Below are positions 19,322 through 61,771 of a stretch of DNA of 64,000 nucleotides, one piece after another (positions within the stretch are counted from its first letter, which is position 1; each line of letters begins with the position of its first letter). This DNA is from Burkholderiales bacterium (GTDB taxonomy: Bacteria; Pseudomonadota; Gammaproteobacteria; Burkholderiales; Burkholderiaceae_C): positions 186,001 through 250,000 of the forward strand of contig JAFKGD010000004.1 in the NCBI GenBank assembly GCA_017307855.1. Reading direction: 5' to 3'. The position numbers and the translations under genes are program-made. A model generated the notes under the pieces. The model saw only the letters and a program-made list of their open reading frames with translations. It did not search any database and was not told where the DNA came from.

Positions 19322-19657
19322 TCAGCAGGCGATAGCGTGCGATGGGTCACGCGCATCCCGCAAACGCGGGATACGCAATTCGTCCACCACCGCATCGAGC
19401 ACGGCGGCATCGGGCGTGAGCAGCGCGAGGGCGTCGATCAGGTCGGGCCAGAAGAGGGATGGACCGTCCGCCTGTTCGTGATCGGCCTCGGCCGCGAGCT
19501 TCATCGCCGTGATGGTGCCGTGAAGACGGAAGACGGCGGATTGGAAGTTGCGGGTGATGGTGAGCGCGGCCTCGGGGTCGATGGCTGCGAGGTGCGAGGG
19601 GGACAGTGGCTCGGGACTTGCGCCATGTGGCGCCGACTTAGCGAAGGTGTCAGTCAT
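19322..19657 (-). CDS. Leader-associated small protein, copy 1
   Basis: I do not recognise this 111-residue soluble protein. The start is the ATG at 19655-19657, directly after the structured leader. It is a clear paralogue of the protein at 61493-61771. Shared pieces are ALTITRNFQSAVFRLHGTI against ALAITRTFQSAVLRLRGTI, SLFWPDLIDALALLTPDA against PLFWPDLMDALTILTPDA, and VLDAVVDELR against VLDVVADELR. The core is probably all-alpha. Copy 1 has an extra 25 residues at the N-terminus and a short C-terminal tail. It is transcribed away from the defence island. A small regulator or a partner of the leader RNA are possibilities, none supported directly. Confidence 0.75.
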   Translation of the reverse strand: MTDTFAKSAPHGASPEPLSPSHLAAIDPEAALTITRNFQSAVFRLHGTITAMKLAAEADHEQADGPSLFWPDLIDALALLTPDAAVLDAVVDELRIPRLRDARDPSHAIAC

Positions 19658-19880
19658 GTATGACTCTCGTATGACAGGTATCTGAACCCGCCACTCACCC
19701 GACCAAGAGAGGGTGGCGGACCATGCAGGTTGGTCGACCGGATACGAGTCCGGCACCCCCTCGCGGGAGTCCCGCATGGCCCGCCAAAAACAGGCAATGC
19801 TGCGCAGCAACGAAAAAGCCGCGACTCCCTGAGGGATGGCGCGGCTCGCTGCGCCTCGTATACCGGGCGACCAAGCCCGA
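19658..19880 (-). ncRNA. Structured leader RNA with pseudoknot, copy 1
   Basis: This leader of about 220 nt upstream of the small protein is homologous to 61275-61492. Predicted helices on the minus strand: a GGGC/GCCC hairpin near 19880; P2 pairing 19848-19854 with 19802-19808 and enclosing an inner GCCGCG/CGCGGC stem; a 12-bp P3 pairing 19774-19785 with 19715-19726, enclosing a GCGGG/CCCGC hairpin and a CCGG stem-loop; and a closing hairpin. A pseudoknot pairs 19730-19735 (GACCAA in the RNA) with 19701-19706 (TTGGTC). The other copy keeps these pairs with different bases. I do not know a named family; cis control of the small protein is inferred. Confidence 0.8.
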
Positions 19881-20397
19881 GCTCTTTTCAGAACGACGTG
19901 AGTTTAACCAGAGCAGCGTGGATGGCAATGCGTGCTCTTTCAGAACTGCTTGCCACCATGACGACTGACCATGTGTGAGCAGGCCTAGTAGGATGTCTGG
20001 TATCGGCCAAAAGCTGACTGTTGGTCTTGGCGACTGACCACATCCTTGATATCAGTGAGCGGTCATCGCGCGGCCGTCTGAGACGCCTTGCCTTAGGACG
20101 CCGGCCGTATGCCGCAGTCCATGCGCAGATCAGTCCACCTACGCAGGCAGCCGAAGCCTTGAAGTTGGGCGCGCAGATTATTGCTACCTTAAAGCAACAG
20201 CCGGGGGCGGCTGACGAAATGGCAGCCCTTGAATGAGCGAACTCAACGACTGTTAGTGGCTCCGGCTGAGTCTTCGTACAGGCGACGGCTGACTCTTCAA
20301 GCACGGCCGGAGACCGAGTTCTGGTTGCACTTGGCGCGGCCTCGTGACGCTGCAGCGCACCGAGGGCAAAATGGCTCGAGTTTAATGAGGAGTAATG
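19881..20397. other. Junction without a supported gene
   Basis: The region runs from the outer end of leader copy 1 to the SEFIR gene. I see no gene I would defend; short open frames exist on both strands but lack recognisable sequence or ribosome sites. GC content falls across it towards the island, so it probably contains the insertion boundary and the promoter of the SEFIR gene. The purine-rich TGAGGAG at 20386-20392 is that gene's ribosome-binding site. Confidence 0.5.
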
Positions 20398-21843
20398 GTG
20401 GACGCAGCAATTTCAGTCAAGTCTGAGGACTTGCGCATCAAGGTCTTCCTTTCGTACTCATGGACGGACTACGACCATGAACAGCGGGTGCTTGGGATTG
20501 CCAAGGACCTGATGGCACACGGAGTTCACCCCATCATCGACAAGTGGGACCTCCGGACGGGAGACGACGCCATCAGGTTCATGGAGCGGATGGTGAACGA
20601 TAGGTCGGTCACGAAGGTGCTCATCCTCGCGGATAGGAAGTACGCCGCGCGCGCCAACGGTCGGGAAGGCGGCGTCGGGACCGAGACGCAAATCATCTCG
20701 CCTGAACTTTACGACCAAGCTGAGTCGCGCAAGTTTGCGCTGGCCGTTTGCGAGCGCGATGACAAGGGCACGCCGTACCTGCCAACGTATTACAAGGGCC
20801 GCATTTACGTAGACTTCAGTGACGCGAACAAATACGTTGAGGAATTCGAGAAACTGCTGCGCTGGATTCACGACAAGCACGCCGAAGAGCGTCCGACAGT
20901 TTATGGGCCGAGCCCGAGTTTTTTGCAGGACAGGCCCGGCCTTGACCTTGGCACTGGCATGTATGCGCGCCGAGCCATAGATGCATTTCGGACTGGCAAG
21001 GCGCAGGCTCTAGGCTCGCTGTCCGAGTACTTGGGCACGCTCGCTGCGCACCTTGACCGACTCAAAATTGCGCGCGAGCAGGGCAAAGAGTTTGACGAGC
21101 AGGTAGTCGAGTCCTTCGCGGTTTTTAAGCCATTCCGTGACGAGTTTGTGGAGGTGCTTGGCGTTGCGATGCGTCACTTCAAGGAGCCCGCCATCGGTGA
21201 GACATTGCACAGCTTCTTCGAGCAGATTTACGTGCACAACGAGAGGCCGCAGAACTTCTTCGGCTCTTACCAGACGACTGACTTTGACAACTTCCGCCTC
21301 GTCTGCCGAGAACTATTCCTTCTAGCCAACGCGCTTGCGCTAAAGCTGCAACGGTTCGACCTCGCACATGCTCTATTAGACCGCGAGTACTACTTGCCAG
21401 TCATTTCTGGTGGGACCACGATGTATCCGTTCGGCGTGATGGCTCGAGAGGTCGAGTCCATGGACTTCCGGCGCCGACGCATAAACTCGCGACGTGCCAA
21501 CCTAATTGCGGACCTCCTGCTGGAGCGAACAGAGGGAACTTCACTTACCCGCGAAGACCTTATGCAGGCAGACTTCTTCATGCACTTGAAGGCGCACCTC
21601 AAGGATGAGCATCGTTGGCACCCTGCAACTCACGTTTTCGCAGGCGGAATGCACCGGCCGTTCGAACTCTTCGCCAGGGCCAGTTCTAAGAGCTATTGGG
21701 ATGACCTTGCACGACTGCTTGCCGTCGAGGACCTCGAGAAGTTCAAGGCGCAGATGGTAGCGATGCGGGAGTATGGCGACGGCATGAACTCCTGCAGCGT
21801 TGCTCTGCTGACGAACGTAGATCAGCTCGCCTCTCGTCTATAG
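20395..21843 (+). CDS. SEFIR-domain protein (TIR-like), candidate defence component
   Basis: This 482-residue protein begins with a SEFIR domain, the bacterial relative of TIR: residues 15-20 VFLSYS, then VHPIIDKWDLRTGDD and FMERMVNDRSVTKVLIL, then GGVGTETQIISPELY, to about residue 165. The remaining 310 residues are helical and unrecognised. TIR-type domains act as NAD-degrading or signalling effectors in anti-phage systems; SEFIR domains occur in similar contexts, but their chemistry is less certain. The ATG at 20395 is two bases from AGGAG; the in-frame GTG at 20398 has better spacing and may be the true start. It heads an island with a giant nuclease-like gene downstream. Confidence 0.82.
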   Translation: MVDAAISVKSEDLRIKVFLSYSWTDYDHEQRVLGIAKDLMAHGVHPIIDKWDLRTGDDAIRFMERMVNDRSVTKVLILADRKYAARANGREGGVGTETQIISPELYDQAESRKFALAVCERDDKGTPYLPTYYKGRIYVDFSDANKYVEEFEKLLRWIHDKHAEERPTVYGPSPSFLQDRPGLDLGTGMYARRAIDAFRTGKAQALGSLSEYLGTLAAHLDRLKIAREQGKEFDEQVVESFAVFKPFRDEFVEVLGVAMRHFKEPAIGETLHSFFEQIYVHNERPQNFFGSYQTTDFDNFRLVCRELFLLANALALKLQRFDLAHALLDREYYLPVISGGTTMYPFGVMAREVESMDFRRRRINSRRANLIADLLLERTEGTSLTREDLMQADFFMHLKAHLKDEHRWHPATHVFAGGMHRPFELFARASSKSYWDDLARLLAVEDLEKFKAQMVAMREYGDGMNSCSVALLTNVDQLASRL

Positions 21844-22525
21844 CCAAGAGTTACATGCTTCTCGTCTATGCGCCGCAAACGCTCGCCTGCCTAGACGCTA
21901 TCGCGCAGCGTCATGCGTCTCTTCAACGGACCTATTGTTGATCTTCATCCGAAGTGGCTCTGCAAGCCCCGCAGGGCGGTGTGCACATGAACTAGCCAAT
22001 TCCCCCTTTGAGCGTCTGCTGCTGTGCGGAGCTGTCATTGCTTCGCCGATGGACGGCAGTCTGGAGTAGTCGCCCATCGGCCTGCGCTTGAGTTGCGCTC
22101 CTGGCCGATAGGCGACATGGTAGCGACGTCCGTTTCGGGCCCACTCCCGACATCCGAAGTCGGACGAACCGGACGCTGAATACCTAGCTCGTTCCAACCG
22201 TGCGCAGCGGCGTCATGTGCGCAAAGGCAAAAGATCTAGTCGCGCTGCACGGCGAGTCCCGATGACAAATCGCTGTCGGTAAGTTCCGAAGAGCGCTATT
22301 GCAGGAAGTCGCCCGGGTCATTCTCGATCTTCAGCCTTGCCGACATAATCTCGCCCAAGTGGTTGATCTGGGCGACTTCGGCCTCAAACATGTCATTGCC
22401 CGCTTCGGCCGCGTTTACCAGCGCCAGACGGTCACTCGGCTCGCATCGACACGATGGCGGATGTCGACGCGCGGCTTGAAACGTTAAGATTGCATGAGCG
22501 CGTCGTCAAGCTGCGCAGGCGACCA
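21844..22525. other. Gap between the two island genes, no supported gene
   Basis: These 680 bp separate the SEFIR and TPR-PIN genes. I see no intact gene. On the minus strand, ending near 22299, a frame reads NDMFEAEVAQINHLGEIMSA and looks like the C-terminus of an unknown protein, but no plausible beginning is present, so it may be a remnant. The stretch 21900-22200 resembles degenerate intergenic debris common near mobile DNA in this group. The large gap argues against tight co-transcription of its two neighbours. Confidence 0.4.
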
Positions 22526-25500
22526 ATGCAAGAAAAGTCGGAGAAAACAGCCAAATCAGTGGCGGGAGGCAGAGGCCAAAAGCGATTGGCCAGCCCGACT
22601 TCGACCGGAGGGGCAGGAGTCACCTACGAAGTCCGGGTCCAGGCCTCGTACCTCCTTGCAATGTTTGCGGGGTCACCCACCGCAGTCCTGCCAGATGCCA
22701 CGGTGGTCGAGCTTCGCTTCCAAGGCAGGGTACACGGGTATCACACCGACGACCTAATTTGCACGCTTCGCCTCGATGACGGCAGTACGTTGAAGGCGCT
22801 CCTGCAGGTGAAGCTCACGCTGAAAGCCATATCGTCAGATGGCCCGTTCAGCGATTCCCTCATCGCGGCTTGGTATGACTATCAAGACGTCTCGCTATTT
22901 CATCGCGGAAGCGACCGGCTTGTGGTCGTCTACGCCCGCGACGCTGATGGATCCAGAATCTACGTCGCCAGTCAACTGACTCAGTTCGCACGTACGTCGC
23001 TCACTGGCGCCGAGTTCGTTCGCAAGGCTACAGCCGAGGGGTTCAGTTCGAAGCAGCAACGCGGAGTCTTCGAGACTATCAGAGCGATCCTCACAAAGGA
23101 GCTCGGAGCGGAGCCCAACAGCGACGAGCTACATGACTTCCTACGGCATGTCTGGTTCGTGCCTCACGCACTGGCAACTGACGAGACGCCTGAAGTAGCG
23201 AGCATCTTCGACCGCATCAAGCTCATCCTGGGCGCAGAGCTCGGCGGTAGCCCTCGCAACATTTGGGCGCTTCTAACCACGGCGTGTCAGGGCCTCAACA
23301 AGGACGCCGCATCACTGTCCCTTGCCAACATCGACACCCAGCTCTCTCCCAAACTGGCAGCCGCCTTTGCAGCACACCGAGGCAGCCCGGTTGCACGCCT
23401 GCCTATTGCGAACCTGCGTGCTGACCCAACCGCGGGAGTGGCCGCAGAGCGAACGTTCGTCCCCGGCGCGCGCGACAACGTACGGATGCTCTCGGTAGCG
23501 TCCGTACGTCGGTCTGGCGGGCCCGTGGAGGAGATTGGCCTGAGCGCCGGTCGGTTTGACTCGGCCAATCGGGTCATCACAGGCCAACTCGACGCTATTA
23601 ACGAGAAACTGAAGCAGTTCCGGTATCAGGATGCCCGGGGCGACGTTTCCGCCCTCGGTAAGGATTTAGGCCCGTTCGACGCGCACCAGAAGGCGCGCTG
23701 GCACTTGCAGCGCGGGGTATGCACCTGGCACTTGGGTGACGCGAAGTCATCTGCAGCCGATTTCCTCCACGCTGCAGAGCTGTTCCCAGATGATGAGCGC
23801 ATGATGGCCGCCGGAATTCGCGGAAAGCTGCTAAGCGATGACCTCCCCGCTGCGCTGGCCAGTGGCAAGGAGGCCATAGAGCGCTTTCCTGAGTCCATCT
23901 ACGTGTGGACGGTATACGCAAACGCACGGATTCTCGCCGGGCAGAAACTGTCGCTTAGCGACATTCCCGCTGCTCACAGAGCTGCGGCGGATGCACTCCA
24001 GTTAGTCGCTGCGAGCCTGAACCAAGCTGGCGACGAGAATGGCGCCATCGAGGTGTCACTGCAGTCACTGAACTGCGCCGACGCCGGCTTCTACACACGG
24101 CAAGCGGCTCTCTCCACTGTGCTTGAGGCTGCAACTGCAAACAAGGTCTTCTCAACTTTCCGCCTTGCGGATGAACGGATGAAGACAGCTCTACGCGAGG
24201 TAACAACGGCTTTTGACCCTCGTACAGCAAGACTTTGGAACGTTCAAGCTCCTGGCGCCGTCTCCGGCGCCGCGGCAAACCTTGGAATTGCTTTGCTGCT
24301 CCAAGGTGACCGTGAAGCGGCGTTGGCTTTCGTTCAAGAGGCTCGCGCACACGGCGTGGAGCCGCCAGAGCTGTTGCGTGTGGAGCTCGAGGCACTGCAG
24401 CAGATGGCCAACGTGCCAGAGATGCTGGCCCGTGGCCGCGCACTCCTTCCGCGCCTGCGCGAGGATGCGATTGTCGGGCTGGCCCAAGCGGCCGCCAATG
24501 TGGGTGATGTGTCATTGGCCAACGAAGCGTTGACGGTTGCAGAGCGCATTGCAACGGCGGATGCAGACGTTCTTGAAACGCTGCGTGCAATTCGCTGGAT
24601 TGCAATGTGGAACGCCAAGGACCGCGAGGCCGTTCAGGTAGAAGCGCGGCTCGCAGACTTCGCCTCCACGCCTAGCCTGCCGGTTGCTGTGTCGGGATAC
24701 CGAGTGCTACAGCGCTCTGACCCTGAGCTTGCGGCCGTGGCACTTGCGAGAGCCGAGCAGCTTGTCGCCGCGGACCCGGCCCCCGAGAACACGCTGCTTC
24801 TTGCCGACCTCCTCTTCGACGCCAAAGAGTATGTGAAGGCTTCGCAGCTATATGAAAAGGTTGTGCCCCCCGGTCAGCTCAGTGAACTTCACGCTCGACT
24901 GCTCCACGCGTACATCCGGACTGGTAATCGCCGCAAGGCAAAGAAGCTCATCGAAGGCTTCCCTGACGGTTGGGTGCGTGATGACAACGCACGCGCGCTG
25001 GCAATCGAACTCGCCCAAGACGTCGGAGACTGGCCGCTGCTCAAGGTTCTCGCAGGCGCCCAATTTGCGCGGGAGCCGAATCAGGTCAGCAGTTGGCTCT
25101 TCAAGTTCATGGTCGCGGCACGGGAACTGCCGATTGCCGAGCTTCAGCAGCTATTGGCTGAAGCCCCGTTGGCGCTGGAAGGAAGCATCCAGCAGACCAC
25201 GCAGCTCGCCGCGCAGGAACTGCGATATGGGCTGCAGCCCAAGGGAATGCAGCGCATGTACCGCTTGCGTCGGCGCAAGGCAGCTGATGTCGAGTCGGCC
25301 TCCGCACTGCTCCTAGCATTCGTTTCCATTCCTGAGCTGCTGCCCAACATGGAGGAGTCGCTGCCCGCCATTGCTGCGGGAACGCACTTCGTGCTGGCCG
25401 ATGGATCTGATCGGATTCATGTGACTCTAGACCCGGCCGAGGTCGGCGAACTGCCGACGGATGAGGAGTACCACAGTGCTCAAGCCGCTTCTGTCGCTCA

Positions 25501-27016
25501 GCTCATCGGGAAGAAGGTCGGCGAGGAGGTGGTCGTCGAGGGTTCGTTCCGGATGCGACGGGTCCTGCGCGTCGAAGGCATCAGCTCTGCGTATCGCAGG
25601 CTTCTCGATCAAGCGCGCGTTCAGATGGACCGCTCACTTGAGCCGGTGCCGAACGCCACCTCAATACCGATCGGCACTTCGGCAGACGGAGAGCCAGACT
25701 TTAGCGAGCTCCACGAGCAGCTGAAGAAGCAAAGCGCTCATATCAAGAAGGCGTTCCAAAGCTACAGCACCGCCCCAATAACGCTTGGTGGCTTTGGCCG
25801 GCTGATTGGCAAGGGGCCGGTTGACGTCGTGTGCGGCTGGCCGACGAGCCAGGAAACGCCAGCGATGTTTGTGACAGCAGGCACGTTAGAAGAGCGGCAG
25901 GGCGCACTTGCACTACTGGGCGATTCGACCGCCATCTATGTCGTGGACGCTGCGACGATGGCGGAGCTGACAGCGCTGGGTTCAACTGAAGCACTAAGAG
26001 CGCTGCCAAAGGTCTATGCCACGAGCGAAACGCGGGACATCCTGCGGCGTCGGCTGGAAGAAACCAAGCTGGGGCGAGCGAGTGGAACGCTCCTCGACGA
26101 CGACGGTCGCATGCGCCTTGTCGAATACACAGACCGTGACCGGGAACGCGCGCGCTTGGCCGCGCAGGCGATGGTCGACGCGCTTGAGTCGATATGTGAG
26201 GTGGTCCCTGCATATGGCCCGGAATCGGGCATGGAGCTATTGACACAGCTCGAAAAGGCCATTTCGGATGAGGAGCACGCAGTGCTCCGGCTCGCCGTGG
26301 AGCGCAACCTATGCCTCGTCACTGTCGATGGCCGTCTGCGCAATGTGGCGAGACACGTCAACGTTCGCGGCGTATGGCCCCAAGCCTTGTTGATGCACGC
26401 CACTGCCGTCGGAAAGCTAACGCAACGGGCCTACTCGCACAACACGGTCCAGATGTTCCTGGAAAACCGTTCGTTCGTCTCGCTGGGCCCGCAGGACCTC
26501 TTGCTGATGTGCCATCAGGGCACTCACTGGGCTCGTCACGGCATTGCGCGCTACAAGCGATACCTCGCAGACCCCAGCACAGAGTTCGAGAGCGCGTTCC
26601 GCACGACACTGGATTTCGTGCAGGCGGCTGCGTTCTCATGCACGTACATGGGTGCATTGGCCGAACTGCTGCGTCACCTCCTCGAAGGTCTCACGCGGCA
26701 CAAGGACTGTCCTGAGAAAATTCTGGACGATGTCGAAGAGTTTGTTAGTGTCTTGCTCGGAGAGGGCTCGCCGTACCCTTATCAAACACTGAAGGAGATG
26801 GAGCAAGCGGATAAACAGGCGCGGCTCAAGTATCTGGTCGGTGCAATGATGGAAGGGCACGCGTGGGCACTGAGTCCTGCGCAGGACAGACCTGTCCGCA
26901 TCAAGGTCCTCGCAGTGGGCCGAACTCCTTGGATGGTGTCGAGCAGCGCAGACGAAGATCTGGGCGCACCGCTGCCAGAAACGACGAGCGACACAACTGC
27001 ATCCATCCAGCGTTGA
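22526..27016 (+). CDS. Giant nuclease-like/TPR/GreA-like/PIN protein, candidate defence effector
   Basis: This protein has 1,496 residues from the ATG at 22526; an in-frame ATG at 22454 would add 24, but has no ribosome site. Residues about 25-190 look like a PD-(D/E)xK nuclease fold: GYHTDDLICTL supplies the acid, LLQVKLT the Q-x-K. Residues about 350-930 are helical repeats of TPR type (HLQRGVCTWHLGDAKSSAAD). Residues about 950-1040 resemble the GreA/GreB C-terminal domain (QLIGKKVGEEVVVEG). Residues about 1130-1290 are a PIN ribonuclease domain (IYVVDAATMAEL, then SDEEHAVLRLAVERNLCL and VTVDGRLRNVA with its acidic residues). I recall that this PIN-TPR-GreABC order is named in domain databases; unverified here. 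A sensor with two nuclease ends suits an abortive defence protein. Confidence 0.8.
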   Translation: MQEKSEKTAKSVAGGRGQKRLASPTSTGGAGVTYEVRVQASYLLAMFAGSPTAVLPDATVVELRFQGRVHGYHTDDLICTLRLDDGSTLKALLQVKLTLKAISSDGPFSDSLIAAWYDYQDVSLFHRGSDRLVVVYARDADGSRIYVASQLTQFARTSLTGAEFVRKATAEGFSSKQQRGVFETIRAILTKELGAEPNSDELHDFLRHVWFVPHALATDETPEVASIFDRIKLILGAELGGSPRNIWALLTTACQGLNKDAASLSLANIDTQLSPKLAAAFAAHRGSPVARLPIANLRADPTAGVAAERTFVPGARDNVRMLSVASVRRSGGPVEEIGLSAGRFDSANRVITGQLDAINEKLKQFRYQDARGDVSALGKDLGPFDAHQKARWHLQRGVCTWHLGDAKSSAADFLHAAELFPDDERMMAAGIRGKLLSDDLPAALASGKEAIERFPESIYVWTVYANARILAGQKLSLSDIPAAHRAAADALQLVAASLNQAGDENGAIEVSLQSLNCADAGFYTRQAALSTVLEAATANKVFSTFRLADERMKTALREVTTAFDPRTARLWNVQAPGAVSGAAANLGIALLLQGDREAALAFVQEARAHGVEPPELLRVELEALQQMANVPEMLARGRALLPRLREDAIVGLAQAAANVGDVSLANEALTVAERIATADADVLETLRAIRWIAMWNAKDREAVQVEARLADFASTPSLPVAVSGYRVLQRSDPELAAVALARAEQLVAADPAPENTLLLADLLFDAKEYVKASQLYEKVVPPGQLSELHARLLHAYIRTGNRRKAKKLIEGFPDGWVRDDNARALAIELAQDVGDWPLLKVLAGAQFAREPNQVSSWLFKFMVAARELPIAELQQLLAEAPLALEGSIQQTTQLAAQELRYGLQPKGMQRMYRLRRRKAADVESASALLLAFVSIPELLPNMEESLPAIAAGTHFVLADGSDRIHVTLDPAEVGELPTDEEYHSAQAASVAQLIGKKVGEEVVVEGSFRMRRVLRVEGISSAYRRLLDQARVQMDRSLEPVPNATSIPIGTSADGEPDFSELHEQLKKQSAHIKKAFQSYSTAPITLGGFGRLIGKGPVDVVCGWPTSQETPAMFVTAGTLEERQGALALLGDSTAIYVVDAATMAELTALGSTEALRALPKVYATSETRDILRRRLEETKLGRASGTLLDDDGRMRLVEYTDRDRERARLAAQAMVDALESICEVVPAYGPESGMELLTQLEKAISDEEHAVLRLAVERNLCLVTVDGRLRNVARHVNVRGVWPQALLMHATAVGKLTQRAYSHNTVQMFLENRSFVSLGPQDLLLMCHQGTHWARHGIARYKRYLADPSTEFESAFRTTLDFVQAAAFSCTYMGALAELLRHLLEGLTRHKDCPEKILDDVEEFVSVLLGEGSPYPYQTLKEMEQADKQARLKYLVGAMMEGHAWALSPAQDRPVRIKVLAVGRTPWMVSSSADEDLGAPLPETTSDTTASIQR

Positions 27017-51072: not shown

Positions 51073-51135
51073 GCCAGGCGGCCCGCCCACCCCACTCGCA
51101 TACAATCCGCGCCGGCGTCCGCATTGCGGGCGCCA

Positions 51136-51236
51136 CTCGCTAGGGGTGTCCGGCCCCGTCGTCCGAACAGACGATGGTGCCGGGCTGAGAGAGTCCCTTT
51201 GAACCTGATTGAGGTAATCCTCGCGCAGGGAAGCCA
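51136..51236 (+). promoter_or_regulatory. TPP riboswitch (THI element) upstream of cytX
   Basis: All conserved THI-box blocks are present: CTAGGGGTGTCC at the start, GGGCTGAGAGAGTCCC with the CUGAGA core, then CCTTTGAACCTGATTGAGGT and TCGCGCAGGGAAGC. The structure binds thiamine pyrophosphate. It lies about 120 bp before cytX, so regulation is probably by start-site masking or termination when TPP is abundant. No clear terminator stem was identified. Confidence 0.93.
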
Positions 51237-51355
51237 GGCCCGACATCCGGGGCGCCGCGTGCCACTTCTCGCACGCGCATCCATCGCCGCAGCACGCGGC
51301 GTGGCGCACCGGGCGGCCAAGCCCACCTGCCTCACGATTTGCACGGAGCAAACTG

Positions 51356-54235: not shown

Positions 54236-54324
54236 CGGCCAATTATCGCGGCGGCGGCAGGGTTCCTTGCGCCCGCGCAGGGGCGGCGGCGATCGTTCGG
54301 GGATAATCGGCGGCTCAGGATGAA

Positions 54325-54412
54325 ACAGGGGTGCCGTGCCCATCAGGGCCTGGCTGAGAAACACCCTTCCTACCCGATCCAGGTCATGCTGGCGTGGGGA
54401 GTTTCCCGTCAA
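54325..54412 (+). promoter_or_regulatory. TPP riboswitch (THI element) upstream of thiO
   Basis: The element reads ACAGGGGTGCCGTGCC, then GGCTGAGAAACACCC with the CUGAGA core, then CCGATCCAGGTCATGCTGGC and GTGGGGAG. These are the conserved helices P2-P5 of a THI box. It ends about 50 bp before the thiO ATG, so it likely controls thiO-thiS-thiG-thiE. It is the second TPP switch within 3.2 kb. Confidence 0.92.
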
Positions 54413-54458
54413 CGACGCGCCTCGTTTTCGTCCGTCCCTTCTGGCAACACACGACGAA

Positions 54459-57695: not shown

Positions 57696-57771
57696 TCCTC
57701 GATAGCTCAGTCGGTAGAGCGCCGGACTGTTAATCCGTAGGTCCCTGGTTCGAGCCCAGGTCGAGGAGCCA
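57696..57771 (+). tRNA. tRNA-Asn (GTT)
   Basis: The cloverleaf is complete. The acceptor stem TCCTCGA pairs with TCGAGGA, the D-arm is TAGCTCAGTCGGTAGAGC, the anticodon arm CGGACTGTTAATCCG shows anticodon GTT, and the T-loop is GGTTCGAGCCC with encoded CCA at the end. A terminator follows at 57790. The low-GC defence genes begin after it, so it may have served as an integration site, but I found no duplicated tRNA 3' end further right in the window. Confidence 0.97.
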
Positions 57772-58235: not shown

Positions 58236-59579
58236 GTGGCTTACGAGACAGACGAGAGGCTGAAAGGATATCTAGATACAAACCAGATGCATCGTGAGCA
58301 GCTCTGCCTAGCTGTGCTCGCACTTGACAAGCGCTTTGCCGACGTCAGGCCTCGCCACCCAAGAGGCGGCCCCGATGGAGGACGCGATCTCGAGGCTCAG
58401 TTTCACGGCAAAGAGTTGGCCTTTGGTGCTGTTGGCTTCGTCAACCAAGCCGCCGACATCGAAGAAAAGAAAAAAGCGATCTACACCAAGTTCAGCGACG
58501 ATTTGCACAGTGCTGACGCAGCTAATCCGAAGCCATCCGCCTTCATATTCTTCACCAACGTGAACTTCACCGTTGGGGAAAAGGCCAACCTCGTGGCTCA
58601 GGCGAAGTTGAAGGGGTTCTCTTTTTGCGAAATTTTTGATCGCGAGCGTCTGAGGATTGCTCTTGATAGCCCAGATGGATTTGCCGCGCGATTTCAATAC
58701 TTGAACATCGCCATGTCGGATGCTGAGCAAGCCAGCTTTTTTGCAAAATGGGGCGATGAAATTCAATCAGTCATCACGACCGGATTCCAAGAGTTGCACT
58801 GGTCACTGTCCCAACTTCTCTTTCTGCAAGAGGCGGCACGCCCCCTGCTAAACTTCCAAGTTCAATTCAAGCTTGACAGAGAGTACGAAGCTTCTGAGAT
58901 CAGCCACTTCCGAGCCTTCTGCTCGATCTATTTACGCGAGCCCAAGCTTGGAACTCTGGCACTGCTGATTGGGAAAACAGACAGATCCGAAAGGTTCCGT
59001 ACTGACATCGAAGTTAAACGTAGTGAGCCCCCTGGAATTGCAGCAGGAGTGGCATCGGGTCAATGGACGGTGCCATGGAATCCCCCTACGCTGCAAGCCG
59101 AGGCGTTGCCGCCGACTGAGAGATTCGAGAACAGCACCTATGCTGACGACGACGAGGAAACATGGAACTACATACAAACAGGGTGCGGTTCCGCTATCGG
59201 CATGGCCAAAGTTAGATACCTTGGCGTTTCCTACTCATCGTCCAGTTTCATCCGCTTCGAACCAGTGTTGTCACTAATCGACTTTGACGACTGCATGATC
59301 ATGCCAATTCTCAATCAGTCACTGGCAGAGAAAGTTGAAGGAATTCGCATCTACGCAAATGGCTACATGCTGCTTGACCTAGCTCGGAATGACTTTAAGG
59401 TCGATCACTCAAGATTCGATCTTGAGCTGGATAAAAAATTCTCAGAGACGGAGCTGGCTGACCCTTGGGTCCGTTTACGCCCTGCCGATTTTTCATCAAC
59501 GTTCCGTCTCTCCTTCGCCGATAGCGTCCCGGTGAGAATGTTCAAGTCAAAAAGAGCTACGCTCGATTCTCCCAAGTAG
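58236..59579 (+). CDS. Restriction-nuclease-like protein of defence island 2
   Basis: This 447-residue protein is clearly lower in GC than the chromosome around it. The start is a GTG at 58236, 7 nt after GGAGG. Residues about 15-165 look like a PD-(D/E)xK-type domain: RHPRGGPDGGRDLEAQFHGK has the acidic strand, but the strand where Q-x-K or E-x-K should follow reads FGAVGFVNQ, so catalysis may be lost. Further conserved-looking segments are SAFIFFTNVNFTVGEKANLV and FCEIFDRERLRIALDSPDGF. A hydrophobic helix follows (ITTGFQELHWSLSQLLFLQE), and the C-terminal 230 residues are unrecognised. I recall similar hypothetical proteins in defence regions. It is convergent with the SIR2 gene. Confidence 0.65.
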   Translation: MAYETDERLKGYLDTNQMHREQLCLAVLALDKRFADVRPRHPRGGPDGGRDLEAQFHGKELAFGAVGFVNQAADIEEKKKAIYTKFSDDLHSADAANPKPSAFIFFTNVNFTVGEKANLVAQAKLKGFSFCEIFDRERLRIALDSPDGFAARFQYLNIAMSDAEQASFFAKWGDEIQSVITTGFQELHWSLSQLLFLQEAARPLLNFQVQFKLDREYEASEISHFRAFCSIYLREPKLGTLALLIGKTDRSERFRTDIEVKRSEPPGIAAGVASGQWTVPWNPPTLQAEALPPTERFENSTYADDDEETWNYIQTGCGSAIGMAKVRYLGVSYSSSSFIRFEPVLSLIDFDDCMIMPILNQSLAEKVEGIRIYANGYMLLDLARNDFKVDHSRFDLELDKKFSETELADPWVRLRPADFSSTFRLSFADSVPVRMFKSKRATLDSPK

Positions 59580-59745: not shown

Positions 59746-60588
59746 CTAGATCAATGCGTCTGCTCTTGCACGAAGATCCTTCAAGAACTTTGCCAGTGAC
59801 GCCGCTTGGTCGACTCCGTCCGCGATTATCGGCTCGAGACCTCGGGCGCGAAGGACTTCAGTCAGTACCGTATTGGGTCGACTCATGAATACATAAGACT
59901 TTGGTCGAAATCGCGGTCGTGGGCCGGCCTCCCAAAGCTTCTGCAAACGAAACAACAGAAGACGGACATTGATATCCGTTAGGCTATAGCCTAAGAAGAG
60001 AAGGGATTTACCAAGTATGTCAGCGCGAAGCTTGATATCCAGCGGCGATTCGAATGCCAATCGTTCAAAGTAGCTCGACTCAGTAAAGACCATCGTCTGC
60101 GGACTACGCAGATCCCCGTGAAGCTTGACGATGTGCACCTTATCGTCAGTCAGATTAACGAAGTCATTGACGCTTCGAAGTCCTCGGTATGAGCGTTTAA
60201 GACCCTTATGAGCCTTCTCCAGGAAGTCATCGAAATTCGTCGTATAGATGAGCTTGCAGCCGAGTTCAACGATGGCTCTATGAACGGGCGATGCCACAAC
60301 TTCCTTTTCAGTCTTTCTCCACTTTTCTCTAAGATGATTCTGTAGATCCTTAAGGCCGCTCTTTCTCAGATGGTAGAACTCTGCAAGAGTAAGGTAGTCA
60401 CCCAGCTGCTCAAAGATTAAGCCATCAAATCCTAAATCGTTGCCCAACTCCTGAATTAGCGATGCGTACGACGGCAGTCCCAGTGACATAGAAACACCAG
60501 CGCCAACAAACGGAACGATTTGACCTCGCGCCAACTGAGCGGCCAGTTCGTCTTCAATCGTCGTCACGTGCATCCCTCCAAATAGCAC
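59746..60588 (-). CDS. SIR2-family protein (KomC-like), candidate NADase effector
   Basis: This 280-residue SIR2-domain protein has the Rossmann/NAD motifs IVPFVGAGVSMSLGLPS (residues 24-40), LIYTTNFDDFL (Asn118 and Asp120) and HIVKLHGDLRS (His157), then LLFLGYSLTDINVRLLLFRL. Defence-type SIR2 proteins hydrolyse NAD to stop growth of infected cells. The chosen start is a GTG at 60588 with AAGGA six bases upstream; a later ATG at 60573 touches its own GGAGGG and is less likely. It overlaps the upstream HAM1-like gene by 25 bp, so the two are translationally coupled and probably form a complex. That pairing matches KomC with KomB of the Kongming system, as I recall it. Confidence 0.85.
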   Translation of the reverse strand: MLFGGMHVTTIEDELAAQLARGQIVPFVGAGVSMSLGLPSYASLIQELGNDLGFDGLIFEQLGDYLTLAEFYHLRKSGLKDLQNHLREKWRKTEKEVVASPVHRAIVELGCKLIYTTNFDDFLEKAHKGLKRSYRGLRSVNDFVNLTDDKVHIVKLHGDLRSPQTMVFTESSYFERLAFESPLDIKLRADILGKSLLFLGYSLTDINVRLLLFRLQKLWEAGPRPRFRPKSYVFMSRPNTVLTEVLRARGLEPIIADGVDQAASLAKFLKDLRARADALI

Positions 60589-61121
60589 CTTAGTCCTTCT
60601 AGCGCACGGCGGCGCATCGATATCTCGTTCTTAGCATCTCCCATCTCACTGAACGCTTTCTCACCCCCCTCAGGTACGAATACGCAGTCCCACTGGAATC
60701 CGTGATCGACTCTCGGCGGGCTGACGATACGACCAGCAATTTCTCCTTGAAACACGTGAACCCGTTGCCCATCCACATATCCAATAGTGGTCTTTGCTGT
60801 GGCGACGTAAGTGTCATGCGCAAACAGTTCAGAGAAGCGATTCTTCTCTAGACTGTCCCAGAAGATTTGAGTGAGACCTCCAGGGAATCCATTCAACAGA
60901 TCAAGGTACAAGCCCGTGTGCTCAACAAACAATGGTCTACCTATTTTTTTGAAGGCGCGGGCAGCCTTGTCTCTGATTAAGAGATCAGTATTTATTGTTT
61001 GAAGCTCTTCGATTTCGGTGTAGTTCGCCTCAACGCTAATACCCAGCGGCTCCAGAATTTGGCAGGCTTCCGCCTGCTTGAATCTGTTCTTAGATACGAA
61101 GTAGATTTTCTTCCTGCTCAC
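60564..61121 (-). CDS. HAM1-like nucleotide protein with altered active site (KomB-like)
   Basis: This 185-residue protein has the HAM1/RdgB (dITP/XTP pyrophosphatase) fold. SKNRFKQAE holds the Asn-x-x-Lys triphosphate loop (Asn12, Lys15) and GFQWDCVFVPEGGEKAFSEM the base pocket. Two catalytic positions differ from RdgB as I remember it: the acidic pair of the DDSGL motif is Glu67-His68 (VEHTGLYLDLLNGFPGG), so the general-base Asp is His, and the Ser-His-Arg motif is Ser-Met-Arg (168-170). It may therefore bind modified purine nucleotides without efficient hydrolysis, i.e. act as a sensor. The start is GTG at 61121. It is the first gene of the operon with the SIR2 protein. Confidence 0.85.
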   Translation of the reverse strand: MSRKKIYFVSKNRFKQAEACQILEPLGISVEANYTEIEELQTINTDLLIRDKAARAFKKIGRPLFVEHTGLYLDLLNGFPGGLTQIFWDSLEKNRFSELFAHDTYVATAKTTIGYVDGQRVHVFQGEIAGRIVSPPRVDHGFQWDCVFVPEGGEKAFSEMGDAKNEISMRRRALEGLRCYLEGCT

Positions 61122-61274
61122 ACTCGTCTTCCCTCTCAGACGCTCACATCTCTTGCTCTGTTTGATTCTATGACTCGCTGGTCAAACGCACTGTCATTCC
61201 CACTCATACGACGAGATCGGGATAGATCGCCGGATACGGTGTGCCGAGTACACTAATGACGCCCGAGAAGGGCA
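61122..61274. other. Gap between HAM1-like gene and leader copy 2
   Basis: No gene is evident. It should contain the promoter of the HAM1-SIR2 operon (minus strand) and of the leader RNA (plus strand). GC content rises again towards 61260, marking the right edge of the island. Confidence 0.4.
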
Positions 61275-61492
61275 CGGGCTTGGCAGCCCGGTACGTGGGC
61301 GCAGCAGGCCGCGCAACTTCCCAGGAGGTCGCGGCCTTTGCATTGCTGCGCAGCATGGTCTGTTTCGGCGGGCCGTGCGGGACTCCCGCGAGGGGGTGCC
61401 GGTCCTACGTCCGGTCTGCCAACCTGCACGGCTCGCCACCTCTCTTGGCAGGGTGGTGGCGGGATTCGAGTTCTGTCACGTAGGAGCCATCC
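61275..61492 (+). ncRNA. Structured leader RNA with pseudoknot, copy 2
   Basis: This is homologous to the leader at 19658-19880. Helices: CGGGCT/AGCCCG hairpin (61275-61290); P2 pairing 61299-61305 with 61345-61351, enclosing GGCCGCG/CGCGGCC (61307-61313 with 61330-61336); a 12-bp P3 pairing 61367-61378 with 61426-61437 around a GCGGG/CCCGC hairpin and a CCGG stem; P4 pairing CCACC at 61436-61440 with GGTGG downstream. The pseudoknot pairs TGCCAA (61417-61422) with TTGGCA (61445-61450); copy 1 has GACCAA with TTGGTC there, a two-pair compensatory change. AGGAG at 61482-61486 is the ribosome site of the next gene. Confidence 0.8.
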
Positions 61493-61771
61493 ATGGCAAC
61501 CACCAACACGCCCTTTGAAGCGAAGGGCGATGACGCCCTCGCCATCACCCGCACCTTCCAGTCCGCCGTGCTCCGCCTTCGCGGCACGATCCTGGCCTTC
61601 AAGTTCGCCGCCGATGGCGAGCATGAAAACAGCGGCGCAGAGCCGCTCTTCTGGCCCGACCTGATGGATGCGCTGACCATCCTCACGCCCGATGCGGATG
61701 TGCTCGATGTGGTGGCAGATGAGCTGCGGCGCTTGCAGCAGGCGGCTGCGGAGGCGGCAGCGGTGGCCTGA
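61493..61771 (+). CDS. Leader-associated small protein, copy 2
   Basis: This 92-residue protein is a paralogue of the one at 19322-19657 and equally unrecognised. The core ALAITRTFQSAVLRLRGTIL, FKFAADGEHEN, PLFWPDLMDALTILTPDADV and LDVVADELRRLQQAAAE is probably helical. The ATG at 61493 follows AGGAG at a good distance, immediately after the structured leader. It is transcribed away from the HAM1-SIR2 operon, the same head-to-head geometry as copy 1 has to the SEFIR gene. Function is unknown. Confidence 0.78.
   Translation: MATTNTPFEAKGDDALAITRTFQSAVLRLRGTILAFKFAADGEHENSGAEPLFWPDLMDALTILTPDADVLDVVADELRRLQQAAAEAAAVA

Follow-up and report, generated by a model that had tools for sequence, protein, structure and literature searches.

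Two leaders of about 220 nt, similar in helix plan and different in sequence, each stand in front of a member of the same small-protein family in a stretch of 64,000 nt from a Burkholderiales bacterium (contig JAFKGD010000004.1, positions 186,001 to 250,000; this whole stretch is called the window). The question raised by the locus is what kind of RNA these leaders make and what it does to the protein behind it. Leader copy 1 lies at 61275-61492 on the plus strand and leader copy 2 at 19658-19880 on the minus strand, as located by a first-pass annotation which described them as a new, pseudoknotted structure that might respond to a ligand, a protein or a phage. The P3 helix quoted there (CCGTGC/GCACGG in one copy and CCATGC/GCATGG in the other) and the pairs TGCCAA/TTGGCA and GACCAA/TTGGTC are present in the DNA, and each leader ends directly at the ATG of a homologous small ORF, of 92 and 111 aa, respectively.

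Our answer is that the leaders are very probably C4 antisense cassettes of the P1 immI type and form a C4 antisense circuit. The RNA part of this reading is firm; the repression and the function of the protein are what we infer.

The leaders belong to the C4 RNA family

A comparison with Rfam gave C4 antisense RNA (RF01695, gathering cut-off 45 bits) at 61361-61443 (+) with 48.9 bits in copy 1 and at 19709-19791 (-) with 49.3 bits in copy 2. The source genome contains three C4 elements, each above the cut-off, the third one (55.8 bits) being located outside the window. In the naming used for C4 RNAs, a' pairs upstream of the ribosome site and b' pairs over it (PMC5320573). Here the two arms have a complementary target that covers the ribosome site of the gene which follows, and a second target set, a1/b1, lies upstream of C4. 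The structure of the leader is real, and its RNA class is one already described. The first-pass annotation had let novelty depend on there being no match to a described Rfam family; the match to RF01695 exists, and the claim of a new RNA falls. The annotation rightly saw no metabolite riboswitch, and its suggestion of a phage-responsive leader holds as far as the phage link goes, C4 being a phage-type RNA family; the effector is probably the RNA itself, in place of the ligand it had considered. The annotation had seen neither the third copy nor the partner sites (a1, b1, b2), and the assignment to an Rfam family is likewise added here.

The cassettes have the order -10-like box, a1b1, terminator-like hairpin, C4, a2, b2 and ATG. 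The features of copy 1 are:

61249..61254, plus strand: -10-like hexamer TACACT, a possible promoter, judged from sequence and position; no clear -35 by eye
61279..61299, plus strand: a1/b1 boxes, CTTGGCAG and GTACGTGGG, the upstream C4 target, paired with a'/b' in the cis fold
61306..61341, plus strand: isrK-like terminator hairpin with a short T-rich tail; arms located, isrK match at 61261-61341 (18.8 bits, sub-threshold)
61361..61443, plus strand: C4 antisense RNA, RF01695, 48.9 bits
61403..61410, plus strand: loop b', TCCTACGT, with complements in b1 and in the Shine-Dalgarno region
61415..61423, plus strand: arm a', TCTGCCAAC, complementary to a1 and a2
61444..61451, plus strand: a2 box, CTTGGCAG, the 3' side of the pseudoknot proposed in the first-pass annotation
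61477..61486, plus strand: b2 box, CACGTAGGAG, which holds the Shine-Dalgarno sequence
61493..61771, plus strand: orphan protein P0001, 92 aa, the ORF directly after the leader

Those of copy 2 are:

19901..19906, minus strand: -10-like hexamer TAAACT, judged from position only and outside the TAYANT pattern
19854..19875, minus strand: a1/b1 boxes, CTTGGTCG and GTATACGAGG, from complementarity to the C4 arms and the cis fold
19812..19846, minus strand: isrK-like terminator hairpin with a T run; isrK match at 19812-19897 (28.9 bits, E 0.00043)
19709..19791, minus strand: C4 antisense RNA, RF01695, 49.3 bits
19742-19749, minus strand: loop b', ACTCGTAT, from complementarity
19729-19737, minus strand: arm a', from complementarity
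19700..19707, minus strand: a2 box, CTTGGTCG, complementary to a'
19664..19673, minus strand: b2 box, CATACGAGAG, at the ribosome site
19322..19657, minus strand: orphan protein P0002, 111 aa, a paralog of P0001, the ORF directly after the leader

Two further Rfam families match upstream of C4 and stay below their cut-offs: isrK (RF01394, cut-off 50) scores 18.8 bits in copy 1 and 28.9 bits in copy 2, and c4-a1b1 (RF03163, cut-off 46.7) scores 16.5 and 14.7 bits, respectively. The complementarity of c4-a1b1 is present in the window copies despite the sub-threshold RF03163 scores. Among C4 loci, a TAYANT hexamer at -55 to -15 before a1 occurs in 18/58, compared to a mean of 2.6 and a maximum of 8 for shuffled sequences.

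Near copy 1 there is a tRNA-Asn at 57696, a 447-aa ORF (58236-59579) without a match in Pfam, PADLOC or PHROG and, divergent to the cassette at 59746-61121 (-), a SIR2-like gene (ThsA-like in PADLOC) which overlaps a Ham1p-like gene. Divergent to copy 2, at 20395-27016 (+), a bSEFIR defence-type gene is followed by a gene whose 1520-aa product has a PIN-TPR-GreABC domain. Rfam also scores two TPP riboswitches over its cut-off, at 51132-51248 and 54317-54417 (+), about 3 kb apart.

Pairing between the C4 arms and their targets

The pairs TGCCAA/TTGGCA in copy 1 and GACCAA/TTGGTC in copy 2 are arm a' against box a2. The pairing segments that the first-pass annotation called a pseudoknot do exist, and they are best read as an antisense arm and its target, which could pair in cis as long as the transcript is unprocessed and in trans once it has been processed. 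Box a1, about 130 nt upstream, is a second partner for a', and loop b' (which is TCCTGTGG in copy 3) fits both b1 and the Shine-Dalgarno region b2 in copies 1, 2 and 3.

The complementarity is far beyond what chance would give. In the 28/31 C4 loci that could be parsed (3 were lost) the complementarity of a loop to its own target exceeds that to swapped partners in all four relations, with mean scores of 18.0 v 13.6, 18.0 v 12.4, 18.1 v 13.0 and 18.3 v 11.3, and 0/20000 permutations reached the cognate value in each. The variable triplet of a', of which there are 14 types among the parsed C4 elements, is matched in 58/58 a1 boxes and 51/51 a2 boxes found, against means of 7.3 (a1) and 6.2 (a2) and maxima of 18 and 15 in 5000 shuffles, under a rule that picks the best-matching anchor within 22 nt for a2 and within about 110 nt for a1 and thereby favours matches, and with C4 copies of one genome not being independent. 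This test used 61 of 71 elements, 10 being lost in parsing; among the 61 an anchored a1 box is absent in 3 and an anchored a2 box in 10. The preference for cognate partners bears out the main claim of the earlier annotation, that of a covarying RNA structure ahead of a small-protein family.

The minimum-energy fold of the whole leader, computed by a method in which pseudoknots cannot be represented, pairs a1 with a' and b1 with b' in both window copies; a' is not paired with a2, and b2 is left mostly unpaired. This fold joins a1b1 to the C4 arms as would be expected if the leader acted in cis only, the a'/a2 and a1b1/C4 helices being alternative folds of the mRNA which switch translation without a processed antisense RNA. 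The spacing of 20 nt between a' and a2 makes a cis pseudoknot feasible, and the computed pairing of a1b1 with a'/b' is reminiscent of the IsrK-orf45 mRNA, for which two alternative folds are described (PMC4825925). However, the Rfam C4 match has a closed fold of its own, the C4 RNA of P1 is processed by RNase P and acts on the target mRNA, and the Acinetobacter C4 RNAs are described with a read coverage that is higher from the GGW site onward and with processed-looking ends (PMC5320573). A leader working in cis only is unlikely in our judgement, and we prefer a C4 RNA that is released and acts as an antisense RNA.

By rough duplex energies, the C4 RNAs of copies 1 and 3 each do best on their own Shine-Dalgarno site, but that of copy 2 does not: it gives -12.3 on the site of copy 1, -14.4 on that of copy 3 and -10.2 on its own. 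Since the C4 of copy 2 scores better on both other Shine-Dalgarno sites, cross-talk between the copies is possible. On a1b1 the C4 of copy 3 gives -42.5 with the boxes of copy 1 and -40.1 with its own. A pattern search for extra C4 target sites in the source genome found 14 matches against 15 in a backward control, and no trans target stands out; among the 14 are the sites targeted in copies 1 and 3, together with a match upstream in copy 2.

The small proteins behind C4

The P0001 family has three members in the source genome, and every C4 copy is followed by one of them. P0001 and P0002 are 60% identical over 80 aa. The family has a variable N-terminal part and a common core, ITRxxQSAVxRL...LFWPDLxDALxLLTPDAxVLD, and the pairwise dN/dS among the three copies is 0.26-0.52 (81-97 codons, at high dS and without a significance test). 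P0001 and P0002 have no match in Pfam or PHROG; at the place where P1 immI has its antirepressor gene there is a protein with no homology to antirepressors detectable in these two collections. P0001 gives only weak matches, far below the cut-offs, in NCBIfam. Its AlphaFold model, made from a three-sequence alignment, is helical and poor (pLDDT 65). A PDB search gave a single chance-level match (E 0.71). Relatives of P0001 were not found in 149 other genomes of the taxonomic family or in 398 other genomes of the order, i.e. its own genome stands alone among 150 and 399 in samples that overlap. None was confirmed in genome contigs (31 pattern stretches) or viral contigs (38), none was found in the plasmids or phages searched, and the leader DNA (261 bases) has no blastn match in phages or plasmids. 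Between the copies, DNA homology begins at about -90 to -110 relative to the C4 start and reaches close to the ORF end, with a few short unrelated matches beyond. Because the homology stops near the cassette limits, the three cassettes are taken as dispersed copies with different flanks.

The lack of a homologue in the other genomes, phages and plasmids searched, the occurrence of C4 in phages and an integrase-like ORF beside copy 3 would all fit a remnant of prophage immunity, in which the protein has no function and the copies are relics. This is at variance with the loops, which match their targets in all three copies despite differing sequences, and with the dN/dS values given above; we regard a relic as very unlikely. 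Another explanation starts from the genes next to the cassettes: 3/3 cassettes of the source genome adjoin a PADLOC match (SIR2/ThsA-like, bSEFIR and PDC-S05), and the cassettes could belong to defence islands, with the small protein controlling or inhibiting the adjoining defence gene. In a control, PADLOC-matching neighbours numbered about 3/79 at 40 C4 loci and about 3/78 at random loci, i.e. no enrichment, these counts being rough and estimated among the matches listed (25 of 37 and 25 of 48 families). The 40 loci came from five multi-copy genomes and one further genome and the 39 random loci from those five; random locus L203, which overlapped a C4 locus, was left out. We consider a role in a defence island quite improbable. 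Given this rough control, the circuit proposed below does not build on such a link.

C4 was found in 21/150 genomes of the taxonomic family and in 55/399 genomes of the order (53 over the cut-off), the source genome being counted in both. Nine longer ORFs behind C4 were chosen by eye as likely antirepressors; Pfam places seven of them above its cut-off as AntA, Bro-N or Rha proteins and gives a weak Bro-N for an eighth, while the ninth matches nothing in Pfam and only weakly an anti-repressor PHROG. A protein of 55-180 aa follows 45/71 C4 elements, and these proteins fall into 22 groups at a blastp E of 1e-3. In Burkholderiales genomes, an RNA known from the control of phage antirepressors thus precedes many small orphan proteins that have no relation to one another. 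The C4-linked proteins of G000, G246, G399 and G456 are largely paralog sets of their own genome, the G246 set including one protein from G353; those of G426 and G507 have no own-genome set and are alike across both genomes. G246 carries ten dispersed C4 cassettes (L089-L098). In several pairs of these the homology spans about -140 to +670 relative to the C4 start and ends there, and the first small ORF has another one behind it.

In the G456 set one member clearly matches the Pfam family DUF1484 (7.2e-35), another is just below the cut-off and a third is negative. DUF1484 was found in 24/61 genomes of the family of G264 (92 matches), in 18/40 genomes of the genus of G456 (32 matches) and in 2/200 genomes across the order. 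The Rfam scan covered 60 of these 124 matches, and 41/60 loci have an above-cut-off C4 on the strand of the gene and 58-455 nt upstream of it, in a non-random sample since both starting genomes were chosen as C4 carriers and many loci are from related species. The remaining loci are L115, with C4 downstream only, and 18 without C4 above the cut-off, including L131 with a weak C4 (37.2 bits) and four with a weak isrK only. L111, outside the 60, also has C4 upstream. In L045 (G264; 1501-2150) a leader ORF of 57 aa comes after C4, with its stop codon overlapping the DUF1484 start codon (ATGA), a layout that was read by eye as icd/ant-like translational coupling. P0001 itself has no Pfam match to DUF1484 (PF07363) and an hhalign probability of 0.1 against a Chromobacterium alignment, and PF07363 has 0 matches in the source genome. 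When an HMM of the P0001 family was run on the DUF1484 set and on 45 small proteins that follow C4, nothing but the family's own three copies passed the inclusion threshold (the next match had E 0.025).

VioS, a quorum-sensing inhibitor of Chromobacterium, belongs to DUF1484. In C. subtsugae (the former C. violaceum ATCC 31532) it has 138 aa, represses violacein and shows DUF1484 at 32-138 as a weak match of 8.35e-03 (PMC5339254). In C. violaceum VioS binds the LuxR-type CviR in a yeast two-hybrid assay, and vioS is divergent to the XRE-family gene vitR (PMC11019928). Locus L112, with a 138-aa ORF matching DUF1484 from residue 33 and a divergent 87-aa gene with an HTH_3 domain, fits a vioS-type locus by its features rather than by comparison with the published sequence. 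Its DUF1484 score of 182.6 bits is very strong, unlike the weak VioS match of 2017, which an older profile could explain. The Rfam scan found no C4 in L112. L113, L114, L116 and L117 do carry C4, and their DNA is 89-90% identical to L112 from -108/-111 (ribosome site, ATG) downstream. The sequence directly upstream is unrelated; a block farther up (about 270-280 nt, 86-92%) is common to them, as one would see if the leader had been exchanged within a single locus, or if the block is a repeat. It follows from this comparison that nearly the same protein stands behind a C4 leader and behind an XRE-adjacent leader. Across L112-L121, vioS-type loci and C4-bearing relatives have the same coding region from the ribosome site on and unrelated leaders, a pattern which looks like leader exchange.

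A proposed circuit and its relation to known systems

The match to the RNA family, the covarying boxes, the linkage to the ORF in 3/3 copies and a dN/dS below 1 are the observations on which the proposed circuit is built. The putative promoter would give a transcript that either ends at the isrK-like hairpin, as a short a1b1 RNA, or continues through C4 and the ORF. The C4 RNA would be excised as in P1, probably by RNase P as in its relatives. Its a'/b' arms would pair with a2/b2 over the ribosome site of the downstream ORF and keep it silent, by analogy with the relatives also in trans. The a1b1 RNA may compete for the C4 arms and could in this way relieve repression, as relatives suggest. 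The differing a'/b' sequences would give each cassette its own specificity, at least partly. The guarded protein might be a small antirepressor or anti-activator which binds a regulator of the host or a prophage and is released once C4 falls.

The antagonist role of P0001, taken alone, is put forward tentatively, on the ground that antirepressors and the DUF1484/VioS family stand behind C4 elsewhere. With similar reserve we suggest a more general scheme for beta-proteobacteria, in which C4 would serve, beyond its part in phage immunity, as a plug-in lock on the chromosome; several lineages would have multiplied C4-locked copies of a small helical protein of their own, and these proteins would antagonise host transcription regulators; VioS would have lost C4 and gained control by VitR, and P0001 would be of the same kind. 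Together with the C4-DUF1484 link, the different leaders seen at the vioS-type locus and its relatives point to a route by which a phage-type silencer-antagonist module may enter the quorum-sensing control of the host. The RNA class is not new; what is new here is that the target family is private, that the small-protein targets are so varied and that C4 is linked to DUF1484/VioS. In the open-access texts searched, we found neither the C4-DUF1484 link nor the leader difference at the vioS-type locus. A leader that was unknown becomes a testable antisense circuit with base-pair predictions.

The immI operon of P1 and P7 has the order c4-icd-ant, with one target set upstream and another at the ribosome site of the ORF that follows, and processed P1 C4 is a free RNA of about 77 nt which represses in trans. 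The cassettes resemble it in the C4 fold above the cut-off, the a'/b' arms and the two target sets. They differ in having a private small protein without an antirepressor match, a place on a bacterial chromosome and three copies with different loops; immI has icd, whereas the window cassettes have no icd-like ORF between. IsrK-orf45-anrP of Salmonella Gifsy-1 (RF01394) is similar with its short RNA, complementary downstream segment and ORF, and alternative cis folds. IsrK activates orf45-anrP translation in trans (PMC4825925), and in Burkholderia cenocepacia isrK and C4 form one transcriptional unit according to dRNA-seq (PMC4603805). The difference is that isrK in the window scores below the cut-off and that the downstream protein is another one.

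The DUF1484/VioS proteins are small and of similar size to P0001, many of their loci have C4 upstream, and the models of both are helical and of low confidence (pLDDT about 65 each); no sequence homology to P0001 was detected, however, and the vioS-type locus has no C4 match. The C4-like sRNA group of Acinetobacter baumannii, whose region upstream of C4 is described as having very limited similarity to P1/P7, shares with our genome the presence of several C4 copies with variable arms in one genome (PMC5320573). The targets proposed for that group are phage or bacterial mRNAs (PMC5320573), whereas the elements of the window have their own target boxes next to them.
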